Source of the DNA: an uncultured Lachnospiraceae bacterium
GTDB taxonomy: Bacteria; Bacillota; Clostridia; Lachnospirales; Lachnospiraceae
Assembly: GCA_947305245.1 (NCBI GenBank)
Contig: CAMZDG010000006.1
Location: 1 to 64,000, forward strand
Length of the DNA stretch: 64,000 nucleotides
Direction: 5' to 3'
Positions 44,578 through 64,000 of this stretch are shown in pieces. Made by a program: the position numbers and the translations under genes. Numbering within the stretch: position 1 is the stretch's first letter; each line of letters starts with the position of its first letter. The notes under the pieces were generated by a model. That model was not told the origin of the DNA and ran no database searches. It saw only the letters and a program-made list of their open reading frames with translations.

Positions 44578-44754
44578 TCTATATTCCTCCTATGTAAATT
44601 GAGTCTGTTAATTTTTTAACTAAGAGAATTATAACGCAACCCTTTCAGAAATACTATTCACATATTGTGCAAATATAACGAAATATTGCCATCTTTCCTG
44701 TGAAAAATAACTAGCATCGCTTTGGTAAAAATGACAAAGCCTTTGCCAAGCAAA

Positions 44755-44816
44755 AAGGACTGCGTTTTCAAGGAATCCGGAGCCTCTTACGCTCCGCTCC
44801 TTCCTGCGCAGTCCTT
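44755..44816 (-). terminator. Compound terminator at the end of the NHL/FecR/cyclase locus
   Basis: Outer AAGGACTGCG/CGCAGTCCTT, inner CGGAGC/GCTCCG, then TTTTT on the minus strand. Confidence 0.75.
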
Positions 44817-44822
44817 CTTATC

Positions 44823-46064
44823 TTATTGCTTCATTACGTAAACCCTTCTGGAAAAAGGATCACAGATATATACCTTGTCCTCATGGCAGAAGATTCCCGC
44901 AGGAGAGACGGGGGAAGTCGTCAGTTCCTTCTCCGGGAGCGACAGGATCGTCGTCACCTTTCCGTTCTTGATCCGGCGAATGGAGGCATTCACGGTATCG
45001 CTGACATAAACGGCGCCGTCCTTTCCAACCGCAACACCCTGAGGGGAGGCAAAGGTCGCTTCATGCGCTTCCCCGTCCTCATCTCCTTCTTCACCCTTAC
45101 CGGCGAACACGGTCTTCACGCCGCCGTCGATCTTCACGATCTGGTGCTCCAGCGTCTCGGCCACGTACATCACGCCGTCCTTCCAACAGATGCCCATGGG
45201 GCCGTGTAATCCCTCCTGGAAAATGTCCACCTGCCCCTGTTCCGTGATCACATAGATGATCCCGCGGGCAGTGTCCGCCACGTAAAGTCTTCCCTGGCTA
45301 TCGGTAGCAAGTCCCGTCGGGGTATCAAAGGTCACGCCCATGTCTCCCGTCTCCAGGGTATCAGAATGACCATTGATGGTCTCCACGCTGCCGTTTCGAA
45401 GAAGTCTCACCACATGGTTTTCCGTATCGGAAACAGCATATCCATCCAGGAAAGGCGTGATGGCCCAAGGCTCCTTAAACAGGCTCTCCTCGAAGGATCC
45501 GTCCATATAACCGCCCATGGGTTGTCCGGAGGCATCCTGCACGGTAGACGCACCCGCATAGACCACGGCCTTGTCGCCCTGTACCTTCCAGATCTTCTTT
45601 CCATAGACGTCCGTCACCAGGAAATCGCCCTCCTTGCTGACGGTGATCCCGCTGGGGCCGCACATGACGTCCAGCCCCTCGAGATATGCCATTTTTTTCG
45701 TCGAACCGGATCCCGGCTTATGACAGACCGCGGCGATGATCACGATCAGAAGGAGCACGACAACGCTGATCCCGCCAATAATGATCCGCTTCTTGTTCTT
45801 TTCCAAGTACATCTTGGTTTCTTCCGCATGCTTTTGCGCCTTGGCTTCACTCTCCGCCTTGACCCATTCCTGAATGCTCATGTCCGCATCCGAGGATTCC
45901 TTTGCCAGATCCTTTTCCTCCATAGGCTTATCCTTTGGCGCTTCTTCCTTGGGCTGCTCGTCCTTGGGTTTTTCTTCCTTGGTAGGCTCTTCCATTACGA
46001 TTTCCTCTTCCAGCTCTTCGCCCATAAAATCATCCTTAGGTTCTTTTTGATTATTATCGCTCAT
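44823..46064 (-). CDS. NHL-repeat beta-propeller membrane protein (paralog 1)
   Basis: 413 aa; acidic/charged N-terminus, TM IIIGGISVVVLLLIVIIAAVC, repeats like PTGLATDSQGRLYVADTARGIIYVI. Confidence 0.8.
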   Translation of the reverse strand: MSDNNQKEPKDDFMGEELEEEIVMEEPTKEEKPKDEQPKEEAPKDKPMEEKDLAKESSDADMSIQEWVKAESEAKAQKHAEETKMYLEKNKKRIIIGGISVVVLLLIVIIAAVCHKPGSGSTKKMAYLEGLDVMCGPSGITVSKEGDFLVTDVYGKKIWKVQGDKAVVYAGASTVQDASGQPMGGYMDGSFEESLFKEPWAITPFLDGYAVSDTENHVVRLLRNGSVETINGHSDTLETGDMGVTFDTPTGLATDSQGRLYVADTARGIIYVITEQGQVDIFQEGLHGPMGICWKDGVMYVAETLEHQIVKIDGGVKTVFAGKGEEGDEDGEAHEATFASPQGVAVGKDGAVYVSDTVNASIRRIKNGKVTTILSLPEKELTTSPVSPAGIFCHEDKVYICDPFSRRVYVMKQ

Positions 46065-46090
46065 CCTACTTCTCCCTAAAGTCTCATGTT

Positions 46091-49000
46091 TTATTCATAT
46101 ACGGCGACAAAGTACATGTTTCCCGTTACGGTTGGCGGTACGCCGCCCGGTTCTCCACCATTTAACGACCATCCTTTGAAAGTAAGCGTTTCTCCAGAGG
46201 CGGGGTCAACGATCGAGTCTGGTACATTGGACGGAACAGTAATTGGATCTCCATAATGTACCTGCTTATAGGAATATGCACTCATGCTCGTTGAATCTCC
46301 AAAGGCCAATTCATAATCATGATAAGCAGAGATGGCAAAATACGCATAGTATGTCGCATCTCCCGTCACTTCTGGCATTGCATCATAATTACCACCATAG
46401 AGGGGCGTCGGTCTTCCTGAACCAGCAGGAGGCGTCGCTGCAGTCGTCCAACCCATGAAGGAATAATAACCTACTTCATCATCCGTCTTTGAAGGGTATG
46501 CGTGGGAAGGGGTATCCCTATATTCCCATTTTGTCGTTTCGATCAGCGATCCGTCGTAGTTGCGCCAGGTAATGTCATACTTCCTTGTCGTCTCTGTCCA
46601 TTCCGCCACGAAGAAAATACTCTCCTCAATCCCAGAGAATGTACCTCCGGCTGGAATTGGTGACCCTTGAGATCCATATACAAGCCATTGCTTGAAAGTA
46701 TAGTCCGTATCTACGCTGCTTGCCTTGGTCGGCGAATTGGGAGCCTTAGAACTCCCGCCATGTGCCACCTGTTCTTCTTTATAAATAGTACCGTCTGCAT
46801 CCGCCCACTTTGCAGTATAGCCCGTCACTGTGATCGAACAGCTTGCAGAATAATTACCGTCATTCGTCGTTACCGTGATCGTTGTAGTGCCAAAGCCCTT
46901 CGGCGTTACGGTTGCAGTCAGTCCGTTTCCGGATACCGTTGCCACGGAGGTGTTACCGCTCCTCCAGGTAACGGACGTATCCGTTGCATTGGTCGGTTGA
47001 ACCGTTGCCGTAAGCGTGATGGGTCCATCTTGTCCGAGGAGGAACGCTACTTTATCCTGATCCAGGCTGACATCGGTTACGGGCCGCTTTACCGTCACGG
47101 CGCAGGTCGCTGTCTTCCCGCCGTCTGCCGTAGTTACCGTAATTGTCGCCGTTCCAACGCCCTTCATCGTAACCGTCGCGCTCAATCCATTTCCGGAAAC
47201 GTCTGCCACCGAAGCATTGCTTGTACTCCAGGTCACGTTCTGATTGGACGCGCCGGAGGGATTGATCGTTGCCGTAAGCGACGCCGTTGCCACCATTTGA
47301 GGAGTATAGTTCACGTTTAGCGTAGTGTGGTTTAGCGTAACTCCCGTAACTGCAGTCGTTACGCTCACGTTACAGCTTGCCGAGAAGCCTCCGTCCTCCG
47401 TGGTCGCGGTGATGGTCGCCGTTCCATTTCCTTTGGCAGTCACGGTACCGGTGAGGCCGTTTCCGCTCACCGTTGCAACGCTGCTGTTTGAAGTGGACCA
47501 GGTCACCTTCTGATTGGTCGCATAGGAGGGTGCGATCGCCGCTTTCAGCGTTGCCGTATTGCCCTTGTTCATAGAAATCGATTGCTGATCCAGGCTGATG
47601 CCGGTCACGGATGCATTTACCGTCACCTGACAGGTTGCAGTCTTGCTTCCATCCTCCGTCTTCACAGTGATCGTCGCCGTGCCGCCCTGTTTTCCGGTGA
47701 TAGTTGCAGTAAGGCCATTCGCCTTCACGCTGGCCACGGCTTCATTACTGCTGCTCCAGGTTACCTTCTGATTGGTTGCATCCGAAGGATTGATGGTCGC
47801 CGTAAGAATGCCGGCCGCGCCGCCGATCTGGAGCTTTAGGCTCGTCTGATCCAGCGTAATTCCCTTCACTGCCACCGTCGGCTCTTCCTTGGAAATCTCA
47901 TTAAAGGTTGCGACATAGGTCGCGTCACCGCTTGCGGAAACAACCTCCGGCGTCCAGCCGATAAACTGATAACTAAACTGATCGCTCTCCTCGCGAGTCG
48001 GCTCCGCACCGTCATACGTGGGAACGCTTTCCTCGAGCACGTTCTTATCCACCTCAAGAACCGTTCCATCCCAGTTCTTCCAGGTGATCTCATATTTCTT
48101 CGTCTCCTCGCCCACTTTCGCAAACACCGCGCTGATGATCACGTCGTGGCCGGGCATCACGAAGCAATACGAATCATCCAAACCAACCGCCTCACCGGGA
48201 GCTTTGCCGAAACCGTTATAATAATGCACGGACGCGGAATCCAACTGATATCCATTCTCCGGCTTGATCTCTAACGTAACTCTCGCGCCAGTCTCCACTT
48301 CCTTCGGAGCGCTCACGGTTCCATTCTTTATATTCCCGTCCAAAACAACCGCGTGGCTGTCAACGACGCCCTGCGCGATCAGATGATACATGCCATCCGT
48401 GCGGTAAATGGACGCTGCATGATACTTCGAAAGATCCACGCCTTGTCCGAGCAAGGTATCGGTTGCCCCGGCAATATCCGTGCCAAGGGAACTGATCGTG
48501 AAATCGCCTGCGTTCACCTGCAGAGTTGCAGCGTCATTTTTCAAGTTGACGATCTCACCGCCGCTCAGATCCAGCACAGCCTTCGCGCCGTCCTGAACCT
48601 TGACGACGGAATCATGATTGGCCGATTGAATGCTACCGTCCTTCATCGCAAACGTTCCGCCGCTCACCTTGATCAGCGCTTCTCCCGCTGACGCATCCTC
48701 CGCCTCGATCACGCCCTCATTCGTAAAGCTGCCGGTCGTCTCCGCACCCTTGGAAAGCACGACGCGTCCGCTTGCAGTATTTTCAAAGTCACCCTTGTTA
48801 TATAAGATCCCGCCCACTCTCAGCGTGTTGGAACTCAAAACGACAAGCCTTCCTTGGTTCGTTACGTCGTCACGAAGGTTTGCCGTCCCCTTTACGGTGA
48901 ACGTCTTCCCGTTATCAACCTGCACCGGAACCTTTTCCTTTGCAGCAAAAAGCTTCCCTTCCGGTACCTCGAAGGCAATGTCAACCTTCAAGGTATTATC

Positions 49001-49996
49001 CTCCTGCGAACCACTTCCCGGAACCAGAACAACCTGTTTTACGTTACTCTGATTCAGATATCCCTGAACCGTTTCCGCCTTCTGGGGCATGGTCAGATAG
49101 ACAATGCCATCCTCCTTGCCGCCATTCGCCGTGTTCCAAACGGGCTCCTTCGCAACGATGCTCTGCTCCCTGGAGGCCTCCATCCGGATCTTCTCGTTCT
49201 CCTGGGCATGCTTTTCCTCATCTGCCTTCAGCCTGGCCTGAGCCTGTTCCATGGTCAGTCCCCGAAGGTCGATGCCGGATTCATCATAAATCTTCTGGAT
49301 CAGCGCATCATCCCCCACGAGCTCCACAAGAATGAAGCCCGGAATGTCTTCCTTCTGAAAGCTCTTGGTCTCAATGCGGCAGGAGTCCGCCTGGCTCTTT
49401 TCCGCCAAGGGAACTACGTAAAAGTCGCAGACGGTACCCGGCTTTATGGTCGTCTTCTCGGACTTACCGTCCGTGGGATTGATCACAACGCTCTCGAGCG
49501 CGCCCGTGAGCAGATATACTCTGGTGGACCAGTCCCCGGTGACCTCAAACCATCCACAGGTTCCGCGGATACCAGTCACCATGGTGGAGGTTCTGATGTG
49601 GAAGGCCTCATCCTTTTCCAGAGGAACCGTCACGTTAAAGAAGAGATTTCCGGAGTCCAAAAGAACCTCCAGCTTCTTCCATTTCTTTCGAAGCTCCGAT
49701 TCACTGTTCTCGTCCAGTTTCACAGCCTTTTTGTCATCCAGGTTCATCCAGGCATAGCTCTGCTTCGAGGTGATCTGATGGTCACCGCCGTAGAGAAGCA
49801 TGTCCGGCGTCAGACTCTGCTCTTCCTTCGCGCTGTTTTTCACCGTCACGGTTCCTTCCGTACGCGCAAGGCGTATGGTCGTAGCCTTATTCTTCGCCGC
49901 ATATGCCACTGCGGCGATCATCAGGATCACGGCCACCAGAAGGACAACGCTCTTAAACCCTCTTTTGCCAACATGCCGCTTTGAATGCTTTATCAT
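46091..49996 (-). CDS. FecR-domain surface protein with four Big_2 domains and InlB-type repeats
   Basis: N-terminal TM anchor; TIRLARTEGTVTV..RTSTMVTGIRGTCGWFEV (FecR); four VTGISLDQ..TATLTATI..VTWSSSN units; GGAGGG before ATG at 49996. Confidence 0.8.
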   Translation of the reverse strand: MIKHSKRHVGKRGFKSVVLLVAVILMIAAVAYAAKNKATTIRLARTEGTVTVKNSAKEEQSLTPDMLLYGGDHQITSKQSYAWMNLDDKKAVKLDENSESELRKKWKKLEVLLDSGNLFFNVTVPLEKDEAFHIRTSTMVTGIRGTCGWFEVTGDWSTRVYLLTGALESVVINPTDGKSEKTTIKPGTVCDFYVVPLAEKSQADSCRIETKSFQKEDIPGFILVELVGDDALIQKIYDESGIDLRGLTMEQAQARLKADEEKHAQENEKIRMEASREQSIVAKEPVWNTANGGKEDGIVYLTMPQKAETVQGYLNQSNVKQVVLVPGSGSQEDNTLKVDIAFEVPEGKLFAAKEKVPVQVDNGKTFTVKGTANLRDDVTNQGRLVVLSSNTLRVGGILYNKGDFENTASGRVVLSKGAETTGSFTNEGVIEAEDASAGEALIKVSGGTFAMKDGSIQSANHDSVVKVQDGAKAVLDLSGGEIVNLKNDAATLQVNAGDFTISSLGTDIAGATDTLLGQGVDLSKYHAASIYRTDGMYHLIAQGVVDSHAVVLDGNIKNGTVSAPKEVETGARVTLEIKPENGYQLDSASVHYYNGFGKAPGEAVGLDDSYCFVMPGHDVIISAVFAKVGEETKKYEITWKNWDGTVLEVDKNVLEESVPTYDGAEPTREESDQFSYQFIGWTPEVVSASGDATYVATFNEISKEEPTVAVKGITLDQTSLKLQIGGAAGILTATINPSDATNQKVTWSSSNEAVASVKANGLTATITGKQGGTATITVKTEDGSKTATCQVTVNASVTGISLDQQSISMNKGNTATLKAAIAPSYATNQKVTWSTSNSSVATVSGNGLTGTVTAKGNGTATITATTEDGGFSASCNVSVTTAVTGVTLNHTTLNVNYTPQMVATASLTATINPSGASNQNVTWSTSNASVADVSGNGLSATVTMKGVGTATITVTTADGGKTATCAVTVKRPVTDVSLDQDKVAFLLGQDGPITLTATVQPTNATDTSVTWRSGNTSVATVSGNGLTATVTPKGFGTTTITVTTNDGNYSASCSITVTGYTAKWADADGTIYKEEQVAHGGSSKAPNSPTKASSVDTDYTFKQWLVYGSQGSPIPAGGTFSGIEESIFFVAEWTETTRKYDITWRNYDGSLIETTKWEYRDTPSHAYPSKTDDEVGYYSFMGWTTAATPPAGSGRPTPLYGGNYDAMPEVTGDATYYAYFAISAYHDYELAFGDSTSMSAYSYKQVHYGDPITVPSNVPDSIVDPASGETLTFKGWSLNGGEPGGVPPTVTGNMYFVAVYE

Positions 49997-50036
49997 GTGC
50001 CAACCCTCCAACAAATCAAATCGTTTACAAAATGTA

Positions 50037-51896
50037 TTATTCGCGCTTCAGCGAATCCAGGCGCAGGATCTCAAAGCCTTCCGCCTTACCCTTCAACTTA
50101 ATGGTCGAACCAAGGCTCGTGCACTCCGCGCGGTCACCGAGCTGATCAGCCACGGCACGGGAGATCAGGATCTGTCCGCCGGGCGCGTTCGCCTCCAGAC
50201 GGGCAGAGGTGTTTACGGTATCACCGATGGCCGTATAGTCCATACGCTTGGGAGCACCGATGTTACCAACGACTGCAGGGCCCCAGTTCACGCCGATACC
50301 GAAGGACACGCTCCTTCCGAAACGCTTCTGCAGCTCTTCTCCGAGTGCCTTCGAGCCCTCCACCATGTCCATGGCGGCGCAGCAGGCAAGGTACACCGGA
50401 TCCTCCTGCGCGATGGGCGCATTCCAGAATGCCATCGTACAGTCACCCACGAACTTATCCAGAACGCCGTGATTCTTGATGATACATTCCGTCGTCAGCG
50501 TCAGGTACCGGTTAACAATTTCAACGACCGTGGGAGGATCCATGTTCTCACTCATGGTAGTGAATCCACGCACGTCCACGAACAGCACGGCGATGTCATA
50601 CATCTTGCCGCCGAGCTCCAAAGCAGAGGGTCCCTGCTCCAGCAGCGTATTCATAATGGAAGGATCCACGTAATGACCAAAGGTATTCTGCACGCGGCGC
50701 TTCTCCCTTGCGGCCCGCAGGTAATTCAGCGCAACGGATGCGATGAACAGCACCGTCACGAAGAGCGGCACCCACAGCACGTGTAAAACAATCCGACAGC
50801 GATATGCGATCAGACAAAACACGATCCACAGCACCACCGCGCCCACTTCAGCGGCCACGGCATGGATCACGTGCCTGTCATAGAAGAACAATAGCGCTCC
50901 AAAGCAGATAAAGAAGAGGAGCACCAGCTGCAGCATCTGCGACGCATGCCTCGGATAGAAGCCATCAATAAAATTATCCGTCAGATTCGCCATCCACTCC
51001 ACGCCATACATGGGCGCCGCGTGATCGACGGCAGTGAAATAATAGTCACCAAGGCCAACGGTATAAGGTCCGATATAAACGATCTTTCCCTTAAAGCTCA
51101 GCCCCTTCTTTTTCGAGTCGGTCTCTTCCGTCTGGTTTTCGAGCTCCTCCATTCCCTTCACGAGGTCCGCGAAGGAAATACGCTCGTAATATCCGCCGCC
51201 CTTCTTTGTAAAGTTCACGTAATATCTGTTGAGATTTGTACTCGTCTTCGGCAGCGGATTCGGCGTGATCCCGTTGTAATCGCAATACATTTCATAAACC
51301 ACTCTCGGCATGGAATAAACAAAGCCCTTGCCCGGCACGTCGATCCCAAGGATCGCATGCCTCAAAATGGCATCCGTGTCCTCCATGGCATTGATGTGTC
51401 CCAAGGAAGTCACATCCAGCAGGTCTTCGATTGGCTCTGACCAGTTTCTGACAGCTTCCCTGTCCATGCGGAAATCACCGTTCTCTTCCACCACCACTTC
51501 GCTTCCGATGGTGGCGAATCCAGCCAGAACAACGTTGCCGGCTTCCTTACAGGCCTTGATCAGCGCCGCATCATCCTCCGGATTCGAACTGGGTGCGTCG
51601 TACAAAACATCGATCGCAATCACGGCAGGCCTGTTCTCGGGATCCCTGTTGAGATACTCGATGGCCTTCGCCATATAACTGCGCGGTCCGGGCATCGGGC
51701 CCAGTTCGTCAATGGCCTTTTGATCCATGCCGATCACCTTGATCTCTCCGTCCGTCACGCTCTCATGTTGATACAGGAAATCCGACAGCACCGTGTCCGG
51801 ATAGTCCAATGCCCCCAGACCCGCGATCGTGCAAAACAGCGCTGCCGAGAGCGTTGCCGCAACCAGCTTGATGATCCACCTGCGTTTTTTATTCAT
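50037..51896 (-). CDS. CHASE2-domain class III adenylate/guanylate cyclase
   Basis: 619 aa; CHASE2-like extracellular N-terminus, TMs, AVLFVDVRGFTTMSE, DKFVGDCTMAFWNAP, RMDYTAIGDTVNTSARLEA. Confidence 0.92.
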   Translation of the reverse strand: MNKKRRWIIKLVAATLSAALFCTIAGLGALDYPDTVLSDFLYQHESVTDGEIKVIGMDQKAIDELGPMPGPRSYMAKAIEYLNRDPENRPAVIAIDVLYDAPSSNPEDDAALIKACKEAGNVVLAGFATIGSEVVVEENGDFRMDREAVRNWSEPIEDLLDVTSLGHINAMEDTDAILRHAILGIDVPGKGFVYSMPRVVYEMYCDYNGITPNPLPKTSTNLNRYYVNFTKKGGGYYERISFADLVKGMEELENQTEETDSKKKGLSFKGKIVYIGPYTVGLGDYYFTAVDHAAPMYGVEWMANLTDNFIDGFYPRHASQMLQLVLLFFICFGALLFFYDRHVIHAVAAEVGAVVLWIVFCLIAYRCRIVLHVLWVPLFVTVLFIASVALNYLRAAREKRRVQNTFGHYVDPSIMNTLLEQGPSALELGGKMYDIAVLFVDVRGFTTMSENMDPPTVVEIVNRYLTLTTECIIKNHGVLDKFVGDCTMAFWNAPIAQEDPVYLACCAAMDMVEGSKALGEELQKRFGRSVSFGIGVNWGPAVVGNIGAPKRMDYTAIGDTVNTSARLEANAPGGQILISRAVADQLGDRAECTSLGSTIKLKGKAEGFEILRLDSLKRE

Positions 51897-51954
51897 GTCC
51901 TTGGTACCCCTTCCTCGTTTTCACGACTTTGTTTACCAAAATCTTATTTCATTT

Positions 51955-53040
51955 TTATTCCTGCGCCAGCACGTAAACTCTTCTGGAGAATACGTCACAT
52001 ACGTACAATGCATGATCCTTGTAGCACATGCCCACGGGGCTCGTGGGATAGGTCGAAAGGGCATCTCCCGCGTACTCCAGCACCGTGTCCACCATGCCGT
52101 CCTTGATCCTGCGAACCGTCCCGTTCACCGTGTCGCTCACGTACACCGCTCCGTCGTCCCCGACCGTAACGCCCTGCGGCGAGGAGAAGGTTGCCTTCGA
52201 CGCGATCCCGTTGTCGTCTCCCTCTTCGCCCGTGCCCGCAAGCACGATCATCGAGCCGTCCTTGATCTGCAGGATCCGGTTCTCTCCCGTCTCCGCAACG
52301 TAAAGCGCTCCGTCCGCCCAGCAAAGCCCCATCGGCCTGACAAGGCCCTCCTCGTAGACCTCAACCCGGCCCTGCTCCGTGATCACGTAGATCGTGCCGC
52401 GTGCCGTGTCCGCCACGAAGAGCCTTCCCTGATCGTCCGCCGCAAGTCCCGTCGGCTGGTCAAAGATCACTCCCATGTCGCCCATCTCCAGCACGTCCGA
52501 CGAGCCGTTCACGGTCTCCACCGTGCTTCCCCGGACAAGGCGCACCGCGTTGTTCTTCGTATCGGACACCGCGTAGCCGTCCAGGAAGGGCACGATGGCC
52601 CAGGGCTCCTTGAAGAGGCTCTCCTCGAGCGATCCGTCCTTATAGCCTCCGAGAGGCTCTCCGGAAGGGTCCTTCTCCGTTGCCGCCCCGGCGTACACCT
52701 CCGCGCCGGTCATGTCCGCCTTCCAGATCTTCTTTCCGAAGACGTCCGTCACGAGGAAGCTCCCGTCCTCCATGGGCGCGATGCCGTTCGGCCCGCACAT
52801 GACGTCAAGGCCGCTCAAGTACATGATGTTCCCCAGCGGCGTCCCCGTCTTTTTCTTCGTCACGAAGTGCCCGATGAGGAAGATCAGCGCGATCACCAAA
52901 AGGACGATCACGGCCGCCAGGATGATCCAGAGCTTACGCTTCCCGCCCCGGCCGCCGTTTCCTTTCCCTGCGGCGCTCCTGGCCTTTCCTTCCTTCGCCA
53001 CCCAGTCTTCAATTCTTTCACTGTTTTGTACTTCACTCAT
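51955..53040 (-). CDS. NHL-repeat beta-propeller membrane protein (paralog 2)
   Basis: 361 aa; highly similar to the 44823-46064 product; TM IILAAVIVLLVIALIFLIGHFV. Confidence 0.82.
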   Translation of the reverse strand: MSEVQNSERIEDWVAKEGKARSAAGKGNGGRGGKRKLWIILAAVIVLLVIALIFLIGHFVTKKKTGTPLGNIMYLSGLDVMCGPNGIAPMEDGSFLVTDVFGKKIWKADMTGAEVYAGAATEKDPSGEPLGGYKDGSLEESLFKEPWAIVPFLDGYAVSDTKNNAVRLVRGSTVETVNGSSDVLEMGDMGVIFDQPTGLAADDQGRLFVADTARGTIYVITEQGRVEVYEEGLVRPMGLCWADGALYVAETGENRILQIKDGSMIVLAGTGEEGDDNGIASKATFSSPQGVTVGDDGAVYVSDTVNGTVRRIKDGMVDTVLEYAGDALSTYPTSPVGMCYKDHALYVCDVFSRRVYVLAQE

Positions 53041-53059
53041 GATTTCCTATCCTCCCGGG

Positions 53060-56000
53060 TTAAGCGTTTTCGTCTTCCAAGGTAACCGGATCTTCCGGCT
53101 TGATCGCATCGTCCTGTCTGATCACGTCTTCCTGCTTGATCACGTCTTCCTGTTTGATCGCGTCTTCCTGCCTGGTATCGTCTCCGTTCCCGTCATCCGA
53201 ATTGTTACCGCTCTCCTGTCCGATATCGTCCAAGCCTGCGAACAAGTCAACCGACACCATGATATCTTCCGACGCGCCTGCATCATCTGCCGCATCCTGG
53301 CCTTCCGACGCGCCTTCATCATCTGCCGCATCCTGGCCTTCCGACGCGCCTTCATCATCTGCCGCATCCTGGCCTTCCAGTCCCGCATCGTCTGCATCGT
53401 CCTGGCCAACTTGCGCGCCTACTGCGTCAGCCATATCCTGGCCATCCGGCATGCCTGCATCATCCGTCGCATCCTGGCCTTCCGACGCGCCTGCTTCTTC
53501 GGCATTGCCTTCGACCTGCTCCGGATTCCCGATATAGGCTCCGAAGCCTTCGGTTGCAGCCTTTGCGCCTGCTGCCGAATCGATCACGCCGTCATTTTTC
53601 ACAAGACTTCCGTAGGTATTATCAAGCTCGCCTTCATTGTTGATCAAGCCACCTTCCGAATTTCGGATCAGACCGTAGTTATCGATCTCACCGTTATTCT
53701 GCAGGATACCGTTCACGTTATCAAGGATACCCTCTACCACGATCACGCCGCTTTCATAATTGACAATGCGGCCTGCATTCTCCTCGTCACCGTTGATCAG
53801 CGCTCCGTTTGGACCAATCTTAATGGTTCCGCTGTTATGGATCGAATGATAGCTGACGTTCATAATGGCTGCCTGCGTCTCACCAGATACTCCATATCCA
53901 ATATTCACCGTCACGCCTTCGCAAACCACCAAGGTCTTTCCGCTCGGAATGACAACGTTATCATAGATCCAAATCACGTTTTGATCAGGATCCGGGCCGG
54001 GCTTCAGCGTAACAATCTGAATGCTGTCGTCCTTGAACATCTCTTCGAGCGTACTATAGTAAATCTCATCCACGCCAAGCGTCAAAACCGCCGTTTCGGG
54101 TTGGCTTGCAGGTCCAATGGTGCCAAGGTCTTTCTCGCTCGTCCCACTTTCCTTGTCACTTCTCGCGATACACGTAATATTGGTTCCAACGTCATCTGCG
54201 GTCAAAGTATAGGTATCTCCGGTGACAGGCGTTCCGATCAATGCTCCCTCATCATTGTGCTTCTCCCAGGAATAAGTGATCGTTCCCTTGTTCGGCCAGG
54301 TTCCGGTGTAATCCATACTTGCAGCCAGCGTCTCGCCTGCCTGCCTATAGCCAAGGACTGCCACCTGTCCACGGATGGGCGCCATCGTAAAGTATCCGGC
54401 CGCCGCGCCCGCGCTGTCAATGCATGCCATGCTTCCGCCCATATTATTTTCATCATAATGCGTTCCGTTGCCGCCCACCAGAGCCGTACAGTTTGCAAAC
54501 ATGCCTTCGCTCGCCGTTCCCGCAGGTGCAACGAAGAGATCCGTTGCATAGATCACAATAAGGCTTGTGTTATCAGCGAACATATCACTCATGTCCGTCA
54601 CCTGCGCCGTGTCAAAGGTGCTAAGGTCAAGATGCAAGAAATTCGAACAGCCTTTGAACATATTGCTCATGTTTTTCACGTTCGCCGTGTCAAAGCTGCT
54701 AAGGATCACTTCGCCTAAGCCAACGCACCCCTGGAACATGGCAGACATCTGCTCCACCTTGGCCGTGTTAAAGCTACGCACGTCAATCTGTTGGAGAGAC
54801 ATACAGCCATAGAACATACCACTCATGTCTTTGACATTCGCCGTGTTAAAGCCCGTCAGATTCAGTTCGCCAAGATAGTTACAACCGTAGAACATGTTCT
54901 GCATGCTCTCCACCTTCGTGTTCTTTAAGCCGCTCAGGTTGATGCTGCTTAAGTGGGTGGATCCTGCGAACATATTTTCCATGCTTTGTACGTTGGAGGT
55001 ATCAAAGGTGCTCAGATCCAGATCGTAATATGCGCCTGCCCCCCCGTTCCAGATTCTGGAGAATGCCTGCTTCATGCTGGTTACGTTCTCCGTATGGATC
55101 AGATCCAGATTCAAGAACTGGACGTCGCCCATGTCATAGAAGGCCTGCTCCATGCTGGTGGGATAGATGTCCTCCATCACGATGACGCCAGGGATGGTCG
55201 CATTCGCAACATTCGTTCCGTCCGTCGGCGTAAATTCAGAGCTCTTGATCGCATTATTCGGAAGCTGCATCCTGCCGCCGCCGGAATGCCCGTACAATCT
55301 GATGAAGTAGTAATCCTCGGTGCCGCCCTGCCCGTCATCTTCCTGCACAAGCGTCATAGAGTAATATACGCCCGCCGCGCCAAGCTGCGTCTTATCCGTA
55401 AGGTAACCAGGGTTCGTCGTTCCGCCGTCAGGGATGGCACGCTCTATGCCCACATATTGAGGATTATAGGCCGTTCCATTGCTGCCCTCGAGTCCGAAGT
55501 CGCCATCGAACATATCGTCGCCGGTAGCGTTCGTCACGTCAAAGTTCGACGATACGTAAATCGTGGTAAGCTGCGTATCACGCTCCATCATAAACATCTC
55601 GTCCATGTTCGTCACGTTCGCAGTGTTAAATCCACTTAGATCAAGCATCTGCATGCTTTCGCAATTCTTGAACATGCCACTCATATCTTCCACGTTCGCC
55701 GTTTCGAATTCGTTCAGGCTTAGCGTCTTTAAGCTTCCACATCCATTAAACATATATGCCATCGTTGTGACATAAGGATTCGTCCATCCGTCGAGGATCA
55801 GACTCGTCAGATCATCACACTCCGCGAACATCTCGTCCATGGAAAGCACGTTACCCGTGTTAAACGAGGTCAGGTCAAGGGAGGTAAGGCCCGTGCGCAT
55901 GAAGGAATAACGCATGTCCATCACATTGTCCGTATGGAGATTTTCAATGTTCTCGATGGTCTTTAGTCCTCTCATTTCATAGAACGCAAACAACATGTTC

Positions 56001-59000
56001 GTAGGATAGATCGGATCTTCGAAAACAATCTTCGTTACGTCCGCATAATCGTAGTTACCATCATCATATGCCTCGTAGTACAAGATTCCCTTCTTCAGCT
56101 CTTCAAAGCCGCCCCAACTATCATTGTTATAGAAATGCAGGACAGTGTCCTTTCCATCCTCCGTAATTTCATAGTAGATCGATGCCGCGAGCGCACCCTT
56201 TTCAGAGAAGTATCCCTGCTTGTGATCCTTGCCGTCTATGCGTGCAAAGGTCTTATCGACAGGATTTGTGATCTCACCAGTCTTAATTCTGGTTCCGAAG
56301 CCGCCCATCAGGTTGGTACACCCGTAGAATATGTTTCCTTCACCGTCATCATCGTTCACGCCGTCCGTTACGCTCGTCACAACAAACTTGTCGGAAGCAT
56401 AGATGGTCTCCAAGGCCGCACAGCCGTAGAACATATGGGCCATCTTCGTCACGTTCGTCGTATCAAATCCGCTCAGGTCAAGCTCCTTCAGGCTTCGACA
56501 ATTATTGAACATATAGGACAGATCCGTTGCAGTATCGCTAAGTTGCAGTCTGTCAAGGTTCTCAATGACGCTCAGGTTCGTCAGTCCGTCAAAGGCATTT
56601 GCCACGCTTTCCGGGCTGATCTCTTCCATGATGACCACCATCGTGATGCCGCTCTTCAGGTTAGCGACTCCGCCAGAGGGCGCATACTCTTCGCTGCTCA
56701 ATTTCTTGCTTGTGATTTCCGTTCTGTCAGTCCCGTTATGTCCATACAGGCGCAAAATCTTATCCGAGCCAACGTTCTGCATGCTATAGAACAGACCCGT
56801 CGCCGCAGTGATATCATTCTTGTCCGTAAAGTATCCGGGCGCCGCAGCAGTATCAAGCCTTGCATAGGTAGCGTCGATAACTGATGCGTCATAACTAGTA
56901 CCGTTACCGCCCATCAGGCTGTAAAGATTCCAGAACATAGCCTCGCCGCCATTGGTATCTAAGCTGTCAAGCGTAAATTCATCGGAAGCATAGATCGTCG
57001 TCAGTTTATGATTCGGCTCACTCATGCTGAACATGTAAGTCATGGTTTTTACTTTGGCGGTGTTAAAGCTGCTCAGATCCAGAGTCGATAAACCGTAACA
57101 ATCGCTGAACATTTGCTGTATGTTATCCGCGTTGCTCGTGTCAAAGCTACTCAGATCCAAGGAAGTCAGTTTACTACAGCCAGAGAACATCCGGGCGAAA
57201 CAGGTTGCGGACGAGGTATCGAAATTCGTAAGGTCGACAGAGGTCAGGTTTCCGCAATCACTGAACAAGTTTTCAAAACTAGTAACGTTCGAGGTGTCAA
57301 GATTGCTAAGATCCATGGTCTTCAGACTTCCGCAGCCTGCGAAGGCCGAACCCATGTCCGTCACCTTCGACAGGCTCAGGCCGTTGAGTTTGATTCCCGT
57401 CAGATTCCATGCGCCATAGAACATATCACGCATGTCCGTCAGGCTCGAGGTATTCCACTTCGTCAGATCAAGTTCTCCTGCCAGGCCTGAGTTATAGAAT
57501 GCTCCCGCCATGCTCATAACCTTGTCCGTCTTCAGGTTATCAAAATTCTCAAATGCCGTAAGAGGCATCTCTCTGAATGCGGTGATCATGTTCGTAGGAT
57601 GGATCTCGTCTACGAAATTGACCTTCGTGATTTCCATGGCAGAATATCCATTCATGTTAAGCGAATTGGAATAGATGTCCCCCATCGGAAGCTGCTCTCT
57701 TCCAGTGCCTGCACTCGCATAGAAGCTAAGAACAATGTCCGTCCCTACCTTCTTGATGTCATAATAGAGCGATGCCGGGGTCGCATTCTTATCCGTAAAG
57801 TAACCAGGCAGATTGTTCCTTCCGTCAATGCGGGCATATTCCTTATCCGCCGTGTTCAAAGTCGCCTCATAGCATTCATAGCGAGTTCCGGCGCCGCCCA
57901 CCAGGCAGTCGCAGTGATCAAACATGTCAGGGAGGCCGTACTGATCATAGGTATCCGTCACCTGCGTAACCACAAAGGTATCCGAAGCATAGATGGTTTG
58001 CAGGTAATCGCAATAATAGAACATATTGTCCATCTCAGTTACCAGAGAAGTGTCAAAGCTGCTAAGATCAAGTACGCTGACCTTGCTATTGGTGAACATT
58101 TTCGCCATGGTTGTTACGCTGGAGGTGTCAAAGCCTGAGAGATCAAGCGTTTCATCGCTTAGCCTGCAATCCTCGAAAGCGCTGCTCATGTCCGTTACTG
58201 CCTTCGTGTCGATCAGATCAATGTTTTCAATGGTTTTCAGATTCGTACAGCCCTTGAAGGCACCCGCCATGCTCTTTGGAGCAATCTCCTCAGTAATGAT
58301 TACTCTGTCGATATCTGCCGGGGCATAGCCACTGTTAGAACTCTCATCATATAGGTCGCTGCTCAGTACGCCGTTCGGAAGCTCCTTCCTGCCGCCGCCG
58401 GACTGATTATAGAGCCTTAAGACAACCTCAGAGTCTTCCAGTCGCAGCAAATAGTATAGTCCGCTGACGATCGTCGACTTATCCGTAAAGTAACCAGGAT
58501 TTCCGTTTACGCCGTCAATCTGCGCATAGACATAGGAAATATGGGAAGCATCTGAGTCATCATAGACCGTACCATTTCCGCCGATCAGGCCCTGGCGTCT
58601 TTCGAACATATAACCGCCATCTGCCGTAAATGTACTCGTCACGAACTTATCCGACGCGTAAATGGTGGTTAAGTTACGATCCACGTTTGACGAAGCGAAC
58701 ATCATATAGGCAGTCTGCACGCTCGAAGTGTCGAAGCTACTCAGATCAAGCGAGCTTAAGCCGGTACAATCACTAAACATATACCTCATGCTCGTCACGC
58801 TCGAAGTGTCGAAATTGTCAAGCTTCAGGGTGGCAAGCTTGGTACACCCGGAGAACATACTATCCATGCTCGTTACGCTCGAAGTATCGAAGTGGTTCAG
58901 ATCCAAGGAAGTAAGCTCCGTGCACCCATAGAACATTCTATCCATGGTCGTCACGCTGGAAGTGTCGAAGCCGCTTAAGTTGATGGAAGTCGCTTTGCAC

Positions 59001-62000
59001 TGACTGAACATGCCTGACATATTCTCAACGCTTTCCGTGCTGATGCCAGTGAGATCGATCTCCGTCAAGGATGCACAGCTATCAAACATGCCGCTCATGG
59101 TCGTCACGTTTTTCGTGTCAAAGTTGCTAAACTGCACCGAGGTCAGGTCCGTACACCTGGAGAACATTCCTGCCATGCTCGTCAACTGACCCGTAGCGCC
59201 CTTCAGCTTGATGGAAGGCACCTTGGAGCAGTAATAGAACATGTTATTCGCATTTGTTAAGCTCGACAGATCCCAGGAGCTCAGATCCAGCTCCTGATCA
59301 AAACTGGACAGTGACACAAACGCGTATTCCATGGAAGTCACGTTCTTGGTGTCAATCTTGTCAAGTCCAACGATGGAAGTCACGTCGCCCATGGAACCAA
59401 AGGCATACGTCATGTCATACGGCACGATGGTATCCTCGATGCGGATTGCGGTCACTTTATACCGCGAGCTGGTCAATTCATTTTCATAGGAGAGGCTGTG
59501 CATAGCGCCGCCGATCAGCCTTGTCCTGTCAGTTCCTGCTGCATTATAGAAATGAAGCGTATACTCATCCGTCTTACCGGTATTCAACGTAAACTGATAG
59601 TAGATGGAGGAAGGATCCACAATGTCCTTTCCGGTAAAGTATCCCTTCTTTCCGTCCTTGCCGTCGATCCAGGCATAGGTCTTATCCACGACACTGCCAG
59701 AGCTCTCGCCATACAGATAGCATCTCGTTCCAAGACCACCGATCAGTCCCCTACAGTTATTAAACATATTTTCGTGGCTTGCAGCGTCCGTAAGCTGCGT
59801 TACGACAAAGGCATCGGAAGCATAGATCGTCTTCAGCTTGCTGCTGAATGCGAACATATATGCCATGTCCGTTACGCTGGAGGTGTCAAATCCGCTCAGA
59901 TCCAGAACGGTTAATGCGCCACAGCCCCTGAACGCCTGTGCCATGGAGGTCACGGCTTCCGTATGGAGATGCCCCATATTCTGGATTTCCTTCAGGTTGC
60001 TACACTGATAGAACGCGGAATCCATGTTGGCAGGATAGATCGGCTCCTCAATGATGACCTGAGTAATATTGCTTCTGTTAATGGCCGTCTCACCGCTCGT
60101 ATCCGTATACTGCGAACTGTTCAGCATTGCGCCGTAAATCTGGGTCCATCCCGTCTCGGGAGTCGCGGACAGATGAAGCACCGTCTCGCCACTTTCCACG
60201 GAGAGCTTATAGTAGATCCTCTTATCCAGCTGATTCTTGTCCGTAAAGTAACCCTGCTGCGAAGCCACAGGATTATCGATCCGGGCATACTCCCCATCCG
60301 TATGAGGATCGTCCACAAACTTAGTACCCTGGCCGCCCACCAGACCCTTTCGGCCGGTGAACATGTCATCCTGACGGCCAGACTGTGAAGTGCTGGCGTC
60401 AAGCACAAAGTTCTGCGAAGCATAGATGGTCGTCAGCTTCGTATCATCCGTATTCGCACAGAAGATTTTCGAGAAATTGCCAACCCTGTTCGTGTTAAAG
60501 CTCGACAGATCCAGCTCGGTCAGGCTCGTGCAATCTTCAAACATGCTGGACATATCTGCCACGGTTACCGTGCTAAAGCTTGACAGGTCAAGTGTCTTCA
60601 GGCTGGAACATCCCTGGAACATGGTATTCATGCTACCCACGTTGCTGGTAACGAAGCTTGACAGGATAATGGTTTCAAGACTCGAGCAGCCCGCAAACAT
60701 TCCTGCCATGTTCGATACGTGGGAAGTATCGAAATGAGACAGATCCAATGCTACAAGGGACGAACAATTTTCAAACATGCAGATCATGGCCTGCGCGCTC
60801 GAAGTGTCAAAGCTTGACAGATCAAGCTCCATCAAGGAAGTACAACCGCTGAACACGTAAGTCATGTCATTCAGATCCTTCGTATCCAGATAGTTCAGGT
60901 TCTCAATCTTCTTCAGGTCAGCACAATCCTTAAACGCCGATCCAATGCCCTCGGGAGCGATCGGGGAGTCGATGACAACCTTCGTGATCTGCGTGTGATC
61001 ATAGCTAGTCGTTGCGGTGGAAGGTGTCTGGTACTGAGAGCTATCCAGTTTATTATCCGGAAGCGGAGTTCTGCCGGTCGCTTCCCTCGCATAGAGCGTC
61101 AGCACGATTTCTCCGTTGCCGTCTTCTTCCAAGGTGTAGTATACTCCGGTTTTCTCCTCCCAAGTCGCGCAGAAGGTCATGGCACCGGAGTCGGTGGTGC
61201 CAACTTCCGTGACGATCGTGCCAGGCGTATTCACTTCATACCATCCGGTGAACTTGTAACCGTCTCTGGTCACGTTCGCGGGCAGGGTCGCTCCAGTGCC
61301 ATAGGTATATTCCGTAGGCACGGTGGTGTCATTGATCTTTGCCGTCGCGTCATTTTCGGCCTTCAGATCATAGGTAATGCCATATTTGCGGGCGGTTGCC
61401 GCATAATATGCCTTGAGCGTCGATACGGCAGTGATCTGCGGCATGTCGTCTCCGCCCGTATAGATCGTAGGCGTCGTGCTCGTATCCGTAGACAGGATCC
61501 AGCCCTTGAATTCATAGGTATATCCAGGGCTATCCGCCTTCGAAGGCTCCTGTGATCCGTTATAAGCGGGCTTAGCTTCATAAGCTACCTTCTGCGTCTG
61601 TCCGAGCACGGTGGTGCCGTCTTCATCCACAAAGGTGACGTCGAAGGTCTCCTTCTCGAATTTCGGCACAACCTTTACGTCGTATGCAGGCATATAGAAG
61701 GTGTAACAGTCTTGATTTGTCTGCGTCGTCGCGATCGTCTCTTCCGTTTCCACGTTATTCTCCACCTTGTAGAAGGTAAAGCCTTCGAACGTGTGATGCT
61801 CAGCGGCATTGAAAATCAGGTCGACTTCGTCATTTTGCAGTGCACAAATAAAATAATTCGTTGCGACGGTGCCGCCGGTAACCTGCGCGATCTCCACCTG
61901 ATAATTGATGACGGTGATCTCCGCGGTGCAATCCTTGGCAGGCATGGTAAAGGAGTAAACTCCGTTTGACCCGGTGGTGGTGATCACGTTGCCGTCCGCG

Positions 62001-64000
62001 TCCTTAACGGAAATCGCATTCGGCTGGAAGGAGTAATTCTCGCCGTCTCCGCGGCTTCCGTAGAACTTAAGGTAAACTGTCTGATCCGTCGCGTAATCAT
62101 AAGTAGCAGTCGCGCCGACAGCATCGATCTGCGCGTCCTTCGAATCGTCGAGATTCGTACTGGAGGAGCAAAAGTAGCTAAAGACTCCGCTGCCGTTTGC
62201 GGACAGAGTCAACGTGTTCTTATTTGCCGTCCACTTCGCATGATATTCCTTATCTTCCGCTTCCGTCGCGCCGATGGTCGTCACGGCCGTGTCATTGGCC
62301 GTAGGCGCATCAGAAGTAAACCAGCCGTCGAAACGATAGCCGTCTCTGGTCACGTTCGTGGGCAGGGTTGCTCCGGTACCGTAAGTATAGTTTGCAGGCG
62401 CGTTGGCATCATTGATCTTCGCCGTCGCGTCATTTCCCGCATTCAAATAATAAGTTATGGTAAAGCTGTTTCCGGTTGCCTTAAATCTTGCATAGTAATC
62501 CGCATCGCCCAGTACCGCAGAAAGCGTGGTCTCGGCTCCGCTTGCGTTATTCCAGCCAACGAAGGAGAACGTCTCCTGCACGGTCGCCGCTTTCTTGGGC
62601 GCAGGCCCGTCATATACGGGCGTCGTGTTATACGCCACGTTCATGGTATAAACATAGTTCGGATTCGTATCGTCCGTGTCATGGAAGCGGATCTCATATT
62701 TCCGCGCGGAGGCGGTATAGGTTGCCACATAGATCACGTCAGCCGTCACGTTCGGAATGGCATTTGCCAGATAGGTGTTCGTGCCGTCATACCAACCTGC
62801 AAACGTGAATTCTTCCTCCGTAGAGGGATTTCTGGTGGGATCTGCAGGGATCGTGAGTTCATCGCGCGTCTTGTTATAATCGTACTTTTGCTCTGCCTGC
62901 AGCGTATTTCCGTTATAATCATTAAAGGTTACGGAATACTGTCTGACATGCTCCTCAAACTCCGCCTTATAGGTGGCCTGGCCCGTTACGGTCTCGATCG
63001 TCGGCGTCCAACCCTTGAAGCTGTAGGTATTCGAAATGGTATCTTCTCTGGTGGGAGCATCCGTTCCGGGATAGGAGGGCATGTCGCCATAATCATAAGT
63101 CTGCACCGTGAGAACCGCATCGTCATAGTTTGCCCAGGTGATCCTATACTGGTTCGTGATCTCGTCATAGGTTGCCTGATAGGTCTGATTTCCGACCACG
63201 GGCCCTATCGCAGGCGACCAATCCGCAAAGGAATAGCTGAACTGTGCATTGCCTTCCTTCGTCGGCGTTGTTGCATAAGACGGCGTCGTGCCATAGGCCT
63301 GATCAGTAAGCGTATCCAGCAGGCTTCCGTCGTCGTTCTCGAAAATGATCGTATAAGTATTGACTCTCTGCTGGAAAACGACAGAGTAAGTCGCATTCCC
63401 GGTGACTGCGGGAAGATTGGTCCCGACTGCATAGGTAACGTTGCTCTCACTCTTCCAGCCGGCGAAATCATAGCTAAACTGTGCGTCGCCCTGCTTCTCC
63501 GGATCTGCATGCTCATAAACGGGGATCTCGCCATAAGGCAGGGTAACGGCATTTCCCATCTGGTTACCGTCTTCATCCGTCCAAGTGATCTGATATTCAT
63601 TGACCTCAGATTCATAGGTTGCAACGTAAGAGACGTTACCCGTCACCTCAGGCATCTCACCAATGTTTTCATATAAATTGCTTCCGTCACTCCATCCTCT
63701 GAACGTAAAGGTATATTGTGGCGTTCTTTCCCTGAAGGGTTCCTCACCGTCGAAGCTTGGCCTTGCGCCTCTTAGCAGGTTCGTATCTTCTTCGAGAATG
63801 GTGCCGTTCCAGTTTCTCCAGGTCACCGTAAAGACAGTGGGCGCAACGTAGGGCTTATCCAGCTCCTTCTTCGCATAGACTGCGATAAACTTCGCATCTT
63901 CCTTCACTGCGGGAAGCGCTGCGTCTGCCGCGTAAGTCTCCTTGCCGAGCTTCCAGCCTGCGAAGGTATAGGAATACTCCTCGTCGGATTCCTTCTCCGG
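53060..64000 (-). CDS. Giant InlB-repeat/DUF285 (BspA-like) surface protein, 5' end outside the window
   Basis: Open >3615 aa; the frame continues past the GTG at 63907 to the window edge; InlB-type repeats then many MFxxCxxLxxLDLSxFDTSxVxxM repeats and GYFTDK linkers; acidic repetitive C-terminus. Confidence 0.88.
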   Translation of the reverse strand, partial: PEKESDEEYSYTFAGWKLGKETYAADAALPAVKEDAKFIAVYAKKELDKPYVAPTVFTVTWRNWNGTILEEDTNLLRGARPSFDGEEPFRERTPQYTFTFRGWSDGSNLYENIGEMPEVTGNVSYVATYESEVNEYQITWTDEDGNQMGNAVTLPYGEIPVYEHADPEKQGDAQFSYDFAGWKSESNVTYAVGTNLPAVTGNATYSVVFQQRVNTYTIIFENDDGSLLDTLTDQAYGTTPSYATTPTKEGNAQFSYSFADWSPAIGPVVGNQTYQATYDEITNQYRITWANYDDAVLTVQTYDYGDMPSYPGTDAPTREDTISNTYSFKGWTPTIETVTGQATYKAEFEEHVRQYSVTFNDYNGNTLQAEQKYDYNKTRDELTIPADPTRNPSTEEEFTFAGWYDGTNTYLANAIPNVTADVIYVATYTASARKYEIRFHDTDDTNPNYVYTMNVAYNTTPVYDGPAPKKAATVQETFSFVGWNNASGAETTLSAVLGDADYYARFKATGNSFTITYYLNAGNDATAKINDANAPANYTYGTGATLPTNVTRDGYRFDGWFTSDAPTANDTAVTTIGATEAEDKEYHAKWTANKNTLTLSANGSGVFSYFCSSSTNLDDSKDAQIDAVGATATYDYATDQTVYLKFYGSRGDGENYSFQPNAISVKDADGNVITTTGSNGVYSFTMPAKDCTAEITVINYQVEIAQVTGGTVATNYFICALQNDEVDLIFNAAEHHTFEGFTFYKVENNVETEETIATTQTNQDCYTFYMPAYDVKVVPKFEKETFDVTFVDEDGTTVLGQTQKVAYEAKPAYNGSQEPSKADSPGYTYEFKGWILSTDTSTTPTIYTGGDDMPQITAVSTLKAYYAATARKYGITYDLKAENDATAKINDTTVPTEYTYGTGATLPANVTRDGYKFTGWYEVNTPGTIVTEVGTTDSGAMTFCATWEEKTGVYYTLEEDGNGEIVLTLYAREATGRTPLPDNKLDSSQYQTPSTATTSYDHTQITKVVIDSPIAPEGIGSAFKDCADLKKIENLNYLDTKDLNDMTYVFSGCTSLMELDLSSFDTSSAQAMICMFENCSSLVALDLSHFDTSHVSNMAGMFAGCSSLETIILSSFVTSNVGSMNTMFQGCSSLKTLDLSSFSTVTVADMSSMFEDCTSLTELDLSSFNTNRVGNFSKIFCANTDDTKLTTIYASQNFVLDASTSQSGRQDDMFTGRKGLVGGQGTKFVDDPHTDGEYARIDNPVASQQGYFTDKNQLDKRIYYKLSVESGETVLHLSATPETGWTQIYGAMLNSSQYTDTSGETAINRSNITQVIIEEPIYPANMDSAFYQCSNLKEIQNMGHLHTEAVTSMAQAFRGCGALTVLDLSGFDTSSVTDMAYMFAFSSKLKTIYASDAFVVTQLTDAASHENMFNNCRGLIGGLGTRCYLYGESSGSVVDKTYAWIDGKDGKKGYFTGKDIVDPSSIYYQFTLNTGKTDEYTLHFYNAAGTDRTRLIGGAMHSLSYENELTSSRYKVTAIRIEDTIVPYDMTYAFGSMGDVTSIVGLDKIDTKNVTSMEYAFVSLSSFDQELDLSSWDLSSLTNANNMFYYCSKVPSIKLKGATGQLTSMAGMFSRCTDLTSVQFSNFDTKNVTTMSGMFDSCASLTEIDLTGISTESVENMSGMFSQCKATSINLSGFDTSSVTTMDRMFYGCTELTSLDLNHFDTSSVTSMDSMFSGCTKLATLKLDNFDTSSVTSMRYMFSDCTGLSSLDLSSFDTSSVQTAYMMFASSNVDRNLTTIYASDKFVTSTFTADGGYMFERRQGLIGGNGTVYDDSDASHISYVYAQIDGVNGNPGYFTDKSTIVSGLYYLLRLEDSEVVLRLYNQSGGGRKELPNGVLSSDLYDESSNSGYAPADIDRVIITEEIAPKSMAGAFKGCTNLKTIENIDLIDTKAVTDMSSAFEDCRLSDETLDLSGFDTSSVTTMAKMFTNSKVSVLDLSSFDTSLVTEMDNMFYYCDYLQTIYASDTFVVTQVTDTYDQYGLPDMFDHCDCLVGGAGTRYECYEATLNTADKEYARIDGRNNLPGYFTDKNATPASLYYDIKKVGTDIVLSFYASAGTGREQLPMGDIYSNSLNMNGYSAMEITKVNFVDEIHPTNMITAFREMPLTAFENFDNLKTDKVMSMAGAFYNSGLAGELDLTKWNTSSLTDMRDMFYGAWNLTGIKLNGLSLSKVTDMGSAFAGCGSLKTMDLSNLDTSNVTSFENLFSDCGNLTSVDLTNFDTSSATCFARMFSGCSKLTSLDLSSFDTSNADNIQQMFSDCYGLSTLDLSSFNTAKVKTMTYMFSMSEPNHKLTTIYASDEFTLDSLDTNGGEAMFWNLYSLMGGNGTSYDASVIDATYARLDTAAAPGYFTDKNDITAATGLFYSMQNVGSDKILRLYGHNGTDRTEITSKKLSSEEYAPSGGVANLKSGITMVVIMEEISPESVANAFDGLTNLSVIENLDRLQLSDTATDLSYMFNNCRSLKELDLSGFDTTNVTKMAHMFYGCAALETIYASDKFVVTSVTDGVNDDDGEGNIFYGCTNLMGGFGTRIKTGEITNPVDKTFARIDGKDHKQGYFSEKGALAASIYYEITEDGKDTVLHFYNNDSWGGFEELKKGILYYEAYDDGNYDYADVTKIVFEDPIYPTNMLFAFYEMRGLKTIENIENLHTDNVMDMRYSFMRTGLTSLDLTSFNTGNVLSMDEMFAECDDLTSLILDGWTNPYVTTMAYMFNGCGSLKTLSLNEFETANVEDMSGMFKNCESMQMLDLSGFNTANVTNMDEMFMMERDTQLTTIYVSSNFDVTNATGDDMFDGDFGLEGSNGTAYNPQYVGIERAIPDGGTTNPGYLTDKTQLGAAGVYYSMTLVQEDDGQGGTEDYYFIRLYGHSGGGRMQLPNNAIKSSEFTPTDGTNVANATIPGVIVMEDIYPTSMEQAFYDMGDVQFLNLDLIHTENVTSMKQAFSRIWNGGAGAYYDLDLSTFDTSNVQSMENMFAGSTHLSSINLSGLKNTKVESMQNMFYGCNYLGELNLTGFNTANVKDMSGMFYGCMSLQQIDVRSFNTAKVEQMSAMFQGCVGLGEVILSSFDTANVKNMSNMFKGCSNFLHLDLSTFDTAQVTDMSDMFADNTSLIVIYATDLFVAPAGTASEGMFANCTALVGGNGTHYDENNMGGSMACIDSAGAAAGYFTMAPIRGQVAVLGYRQAGETLAASMDYTGTWPNKGTITYSWEKHNDEGALIGTPVTGDTYTLTADDVGTNITCIARSDKESGTSEKDLGTIGPASQPETAVLTLGVDEIYYSTLEEMFKDDSIQIVTLKPGPDPDQNVIWIYDNVVIPSGKTLVVCEGVTVNIGYGVSGETQAAIMNVSYHSIHNSGTIKIGPNGALINGDEENAGRIVNYESGVIVVEGILDNVNGILQNNGEIDNYGLIRNSEGGLINNEGELDNTYGSLVKNDGVIDSAAGAKAATEGFGAYIGNPEQVEGNAEEAGASEGQDATDDAGMPDGQDMADAVGAQVGQDDADDAGLEGQDAADDEGASEGQDAADDEGASEGQDAADDAGASEDIMVSVDLFAGLDDIGQESGNNSDDGNGDDTRQEDAIKQEDVIKQEDVIRQDDAIKPEDPVTLEDENA
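53099..53174 (-). repeat. 18-bp in-frame tandem repeats at the giant gene's 3' end
   Basis: Encode QEDAIK/QEDVIK/QEDVIR/QDDAIK. Confidence 0.85.
53264..53405 (-). repeat. 36-bp in-frame tandem repeats in the giant gene
   Basis: Encode GASEGQDAADDE; neighbouring copies nearly identical at DNA level. Confidence 0.85.

Follow-up and report, generated by a model that had tools for sequence, protein, structure and literature searches.

A five-gene cluster of this uncultured Lachnospiraceae genome encodes a predicted adenylate cyclase with a CHASE2 sensor domain, together with FecR and NHL beta-propeller proteins. Comparison across genomes supports the view that this gene combination is not accidental. 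We read the locus as a receptor adenylate cyclase whose CHASE2 sensor is served by extracytoplasmic FecR and NHL partners; the partner step, which we infer, is an even call. A more specific version is a tentative proposal that may well prove wrong: in this Gram-positive receptor system, the one CHASE2 adenylate cyclase would be gated by interchangeable FecR/NHL surface subunits, some of them FecR proteins as long as 4000-6000 aa, and its cAMP would target ion-transport proteins instead of a CRP regulator.

The window (the whole 64,000-nucleotide stretch analysed) is the first 64 kb of the 123,464-bp contig C6. The five genes and the terminator lie on the minus strand. The leading gene, at 53060-64000 in the window, is the 3' part of a giant FecR-DUF285/PARCEL-Flg_new protein, whose whole gene spans C6:53060-66271 (4403 aa). 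Next come an NHL beta-propeller protein with an N-terminal membrane anchor (51955-53040; 361 aa), the predicted CHASE2 receptor-type class III adenylate cyclase (50037-51896; 619 aa), a secreted FecR-Big_2 protein (46091-49996), and a second NHL propeller protein, with a long charged N-tail and a single TM helix (44823-46064; 413 aa). The intergenic gaps are 19, 58, 22, and 26 bp. A compound intrinsic terminator, formed by a nested hairpin with a U-run, lies 3' of the last gene (44751-44820; −39.4 kcal/mol, z = −6.5 against shuffles). No sigma-70-like promoter was found on the minus strand between 44500 and 53300, and terminator-like matches there are at chance level. From the gaps and terminators, it is plausible that the five genes form one transcription unit.

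This layout agrees in coordinates, gaps (19-58 bp), and hairpin with an earlier sequence-only reading, which had described five same-strand genes with short spacing and a compound terminator. Its domain assignments (DUF285, NHL, CHASE2, cyclase, FecR, and Big_2) likewise were matched by Pfam, with scores of 9e-33 for CHASE2, 3e-21 for Guanylate_cyc, and 3e-20 and 4e-21 for the two NHL matches in the locus. The locus proteins contain four Big_2, 14 DUF285, and 25 PARCEL repeats. A phosphoketolase gene (42205-44577, minus strand) lies downstream of the unit, and the closest cyclase homologue (at locus L006) also has a phosphoketolase gene after it. Elsewhere in the window is an S10-Clostridia ribosomal protein leader (Rfam RF03136; 16144-16233, minus strand).

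The cyclase has a predicted TM helix at residues 11-29, the CHASE2 domain (50901-51809), hydrophobic helices within residues 321-391 (a 1+3 TM topology), and the catalytic domain (50082-50597). The catalytic residues are intact: metal-binding D441 and D485, transition-state N562 and R566, and the ATP-type pair K481/T555. These six residues are invariant in 77 sequences, although this invariance is partly selected, as two search patterns lay there. Residues K481 and T555 align with those of the adenylyl cyclases CyaB and CyaC, whereas Glu occupies the Lys position in the guanylyl cyclase Cya2. Because it carries this Lys/Thr specificity pair, the protein is predicted to be an adenylate cyclase. 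The sequence-only reading had proposed that it sets cAMP or cGMP; the first half of this proposal is retained as a prediction, and guanylate cyclase activity is rejected on the specificity residues. The structure model has a mean pLDDT of 90.8, and its catalytic part matches CyaB with a target TM-score of 0.91. (Foldseek matches to the whole cyclase are dominated by the catalytic domain.) A genome search returned this Guanylate_cyc match and no other, so the protein is the only class III cyclase detected there. Among the five products, a class III cyclase is indeed the one cytosolic output, as originally read.

The FecR-Big_2 protein more likely starts at ATG 49996 (about 1301 aa) than at TTG 50014, where the open reading frame begins (1307 aa). 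Pfam detects its FecR domain (49496-49771) at 2.4e-9 in the N-terminal 374 residues, and does not report it for the full-length 1307 aa. Foldseek pairs the model of this domain (pLDDT 91.9) with the cell-surface signalling domain of PupR (6ovk, 2e-5) and with BDI_1681 (4m0h and 4m0n). When the full-length FecR alignment was used as a profile against the PDB, only the repeat region was matched. Across the FecR proteins, the FecR domain is conserved and the C-terminal repeats are variable. Only a short N-terminus precedes the hydrophobic segment of the FecR-Big_2 protein, which has no cytosolic anti-sigma domain.

The two NHL proteins, of 413 and 361 aa, are 57-58% identical. Anchors vary among their relatives: some have a TM helix, others a lipobox, and 14 of 27 carry SLH domains. 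What these proteins have in common is therefore extracytoplasmic. The idea of a conserved cytoplasmic motif in the N-tail was abandoned, because the relatives are lipoproteins or SLH-anchored proteins without such a tail.

The giant protein was originally read from its 3' part as a DUF285 protein. The 14 DUF285 repeats bear this out; the complete gene, which begins at C6:66271, adds an exported FecR domain at the N-terminus (C6:65744-66022, beyond the window edge; Pfam 4e-9). Further upstream, a near-duplicate unit (C6:86239-66480) contains a second FecR giant and an NHL gene. This second giant (C6:67613-86239; 6208 aa) combines FecR, DUF285, BspA-type LRR_5, Flg_new, and Big_2 domains. DNA identity between the two giants is 93.5% across their first 2.6 kb, leader included, and the upstream NHL gene (C6:66479-67566) is 99.0% identical in DNA over 1088 bp to the NHL gene at 51955. 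A terminator-like hairpin (C6:66409-66366) directly precedes the first giant. The simplest reading of this arrangement is two units: giant 2-NHL, then giant 1-NHL-cyclase-FecR-NHL. The two near-identical NHL genes, spaced within 15 kb, and the similar giants may reflect recent duplication or gene conversion or, less probably, an assembly error in the draft genome. A 1158-aa protein with a TIR_2 domain and beta-propeller repeats is encoded on the same strand 173 bp upstream of the second giant (C6:86413-89889, minus strand; L087:2413-5889).

The sequence-only reading had suggested a search for conserved neighbourhoods across Clostridia, and here co-occurrence of the CHASE2 cyclase, FecR, and NHL genes was found in two genome samples. 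The first comprised 76 homologous cyclase loci from a genome collection, with partners counted in the same-strand run. FecR genes were present at 38 of these loci, MBL-fold hydrolase genes at 32, GAF-HD-GYP genes at 30, and NHL genes of this family at 26. Among the 40 loci flanked on each side by three or more open reading frames, 33 had at least one FecR, NHL, MBL, GAF-HD-GYP, or GAF-GGDEF gene within three genes. Several homologous loci have no adjacent NHL or FecR gene, although many of the contigs are short. Culturable relatives with loci of the MBL-GAF-HD-GYP-FecR-cyclase-NHL type include Butyrivibrio sp. AE3009 (locus L013) and Lachnospiraceae P6A3 (locus L061), the set of partners varying from member to member. 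The second, independent set comprised 61 genomes, in which CHASE2 was scored from matches covering the CHASE2 part, and those to the cyclase domain alone were left out. FecR was present in 21 of 23 CHASE2-positive genomes and in 2 of 38 CHASE2-negative genomes (Fisher p = 4.8e-12, ignoring the shared species tree). Of the 61 genomes, 11 carry the NHL family of this locus, and CHASE2 is present in 10 of these (Fisher p = 1e-4, species tree likewise ignored); nearly every gene of the family has a CHASE2 or FecR gene nearby.

The same association is evident within the genome itself. Its five FecR genes are confined to three clusters, C6, C16, and C57, and the same set of clusters holds all four of its members of this NHL family. 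Cluster C6 has three FecR genes, three NHL genes, and the cyclase gene; C16 has MBL, GAF-HD-GYP, FecR, and NHL genes without a cyclase gene; and C57 (L005, 3926-9454, minus strand) encodes a CHASE2-HD-GYP receptor and a FecR-DUF6273 protein, followed by an ECF sigma factor and a serpin. FecR thus is paired with CHASE2 whatever the output domain: cyclase in C6, HD-GYP in C57, and histidine kinase in Burkholderia (PMC5192318). That FecR follows CHASE2 across output domains favours a role on the sensor side.

Enzymes that might remove the messenger are found at C16; in many relatives, the corresponding MBL and GAF-HD-GYP genes adjoin the cyclase gene. Both proteins look catalytic, because neither the metal-site residues of MBL nor the HD-GYP signature varies in the alignments of their families. 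Two points count against a role for them here: RNase Z-like folds fit the MBL profile far better than does the cyclic nucleotidase Apyc1, and the usual substrates of HD-GYP proteins are cyclic dinucleotides. Three proteins with cNMP_binding domains are candidate cAMP effectors: an ABC transporter, a 160-aa protein, and a Na+/H+ antiporter fusion. The 160-aa stand-alone protein is encoded directly after an RCK K+ channel-like gene (L132 on C17, 77-1755, plus strand). No CRP-type cAMP regulator was found in the genome, which is 94.6% complete.

Together, these observations suggest a model for signalling at this locus. The conserved FecR domain and the NHL propeller would contact the CHASE2 ectodomain or present ligand to it, while the variable C-terminal repeats (DUF285/PARCEL, BspA LRR, Big_2, and Flg_new) would reach targets on surfaces or glycans. 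The CHASE2 cyclase would alter its cAMP synthesis upon binding, and the MBL or HD-GYP enzymes, or both, would remove the messenger. The cNMP-binding transport proteins would act as effectors, since a CRP-type regulator was not found. The homologous loci without an adjacent NHL or FecR gene count against the model, and a result from Sinorhizobium argues against the partner role: S. meliloti perceives the tested plant signal without the FecR protein SMc02177, which is encoded near cyaD1 (PMC5498481).

The same protein speaks for a different arrangement, in which CHASE2 detects a cue by itself, and the surface proteins (FecR, NHL, and the giants) serve the same pathway as effectors, grouped with the cyclase for joint regulation. 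Its gene, smc02177, is among the Clr/cAMP targets and is needed for the infection phenotype though not for perception of that signal (PMC5498481), and the giant LRR/PARCEL proteins here are adhesin-like. Against this arrangement, no CRP-type cAMP regulator was found in this genome, and the tracking of CHASE2 by FecR where the output is HD-GYP (C57) or a histidine kinase (PMC5192318) ties FecR to the sensor, not to cAMP. We therefore regard the surface proteins as unlikely to be outputs, while giving this explanation appreciable weight.

Less probable again is that the locus monitors envelope integrity, with FecR and NHL proteins as parts of wall or surface-layer assembly, and CHASE2 reading that assembly instead of an external ligand. 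This would account for the SLH domains in half of the NHL relatives, the LysM domain on the Burkholderia FecR partner (PMC5192318), and the structural-looking repeats of the giants. The proteins of this system in the genome itself, however, have no SLH domain, LysM domain, or LPxTG-like end. (By sequence, this explanation and the partner model are hard to tell apart.) Finally, chance juxtaposition of a cyclase gene and unrelated surface genes, to which the restriction of the giant DUF285 architecture to this genome alone among those examined might point, is barely credible: it is contradicted by the co-occurrence statistics, by adjacency in independent genomes, and by clusters that are split and re-duplicated within the same genome.

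If CHASE2 is indeed partnered by FecR and NHL proteins, the conserved cassette names concrete candidates for the partners of CHASE2 receptors, whose ligands and partners are mostly unknown. It may also provide access to cAMP signalling in Clostridia of the gut and rumen, and it broadens FecR-type extracytoplasmic signalling to include bacteria in which FecR proteins have no anti-sigma domain.

How much of this is new? The sequence-only reading recognised no described system, but the CHASE2-FecR pairing already has been published in Campylobacterota (PMC9239204) and in Burkholderia and relatives (PMC5192318). In S. meliloti, too, there is a FecR gene close to cyaD1 (PMC5498481). The recurrence of these partners beside the cyclase in many related bacteria points to a Gram-positive version of a receptor module that is already known. 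The NHL partner and the clostridial cassette appear largely undescribed; in the open literature, outside which subscription papers mostly lie, no paper on a clostridial version or an NHL partner was found.

Classical FecA-FecR-FecI and PupR signalling shares the periplasmic FecR domain fold, but this locus has no cytosolic anti-sigma domain, ECF sigma factor, or TonB transducer. (No ECF sigma factor gene is among the C6 neighbours; one follows FecR at the separate C57 locus.) In S. meliloti, the CHASE2 adenylate cyclases CyaD1, CyaD2, and CyaK function with NsrA and Clr (PMC13001267, PMC5498481). Both systems have CHASE2 adenylate cyclases and a nearby FecR gene, whereas the S. meliloti system involves the outer-membrane protein NsrA and CRP-family Clr, has no NHL protein, and has its FecR protein as a dispensable Clr target with respect to the tested signal. 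The biofilm operon of Burkholderia and Pseudomonas encodes a LysM-FecR protein and a CHASE2 histidine kinase (PMC5192318). There too, an exported FecR protein adjoins a CHASE2 membrane sensor, but output is through a histidine kinase and response regulator, the FecR partner bears LysM, and NHL is absent.

The Campylobacterota cluster, for which horizontal transfer has been proposed, consists of CHASE2 adenylate cyclase, phosphodiesterase, FecR, and TPR genes (PMC9239204). It shares with this locus a CHASE2 adenylate cyclase beside an exported FecR-domain protein. The phosphodiesterase is encoded in the Campylobacterota cluster, whereas the candidate hydrolases here (MBL and GAF-HD-GYP) are encoded at another locus, and the window genes scanned gave no TPR match. 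In the Gram-positive Clostridia, NHL propellers stand in place of TPR proteins, and this genome has several FecR paralogues, the longest of 6208 aa.
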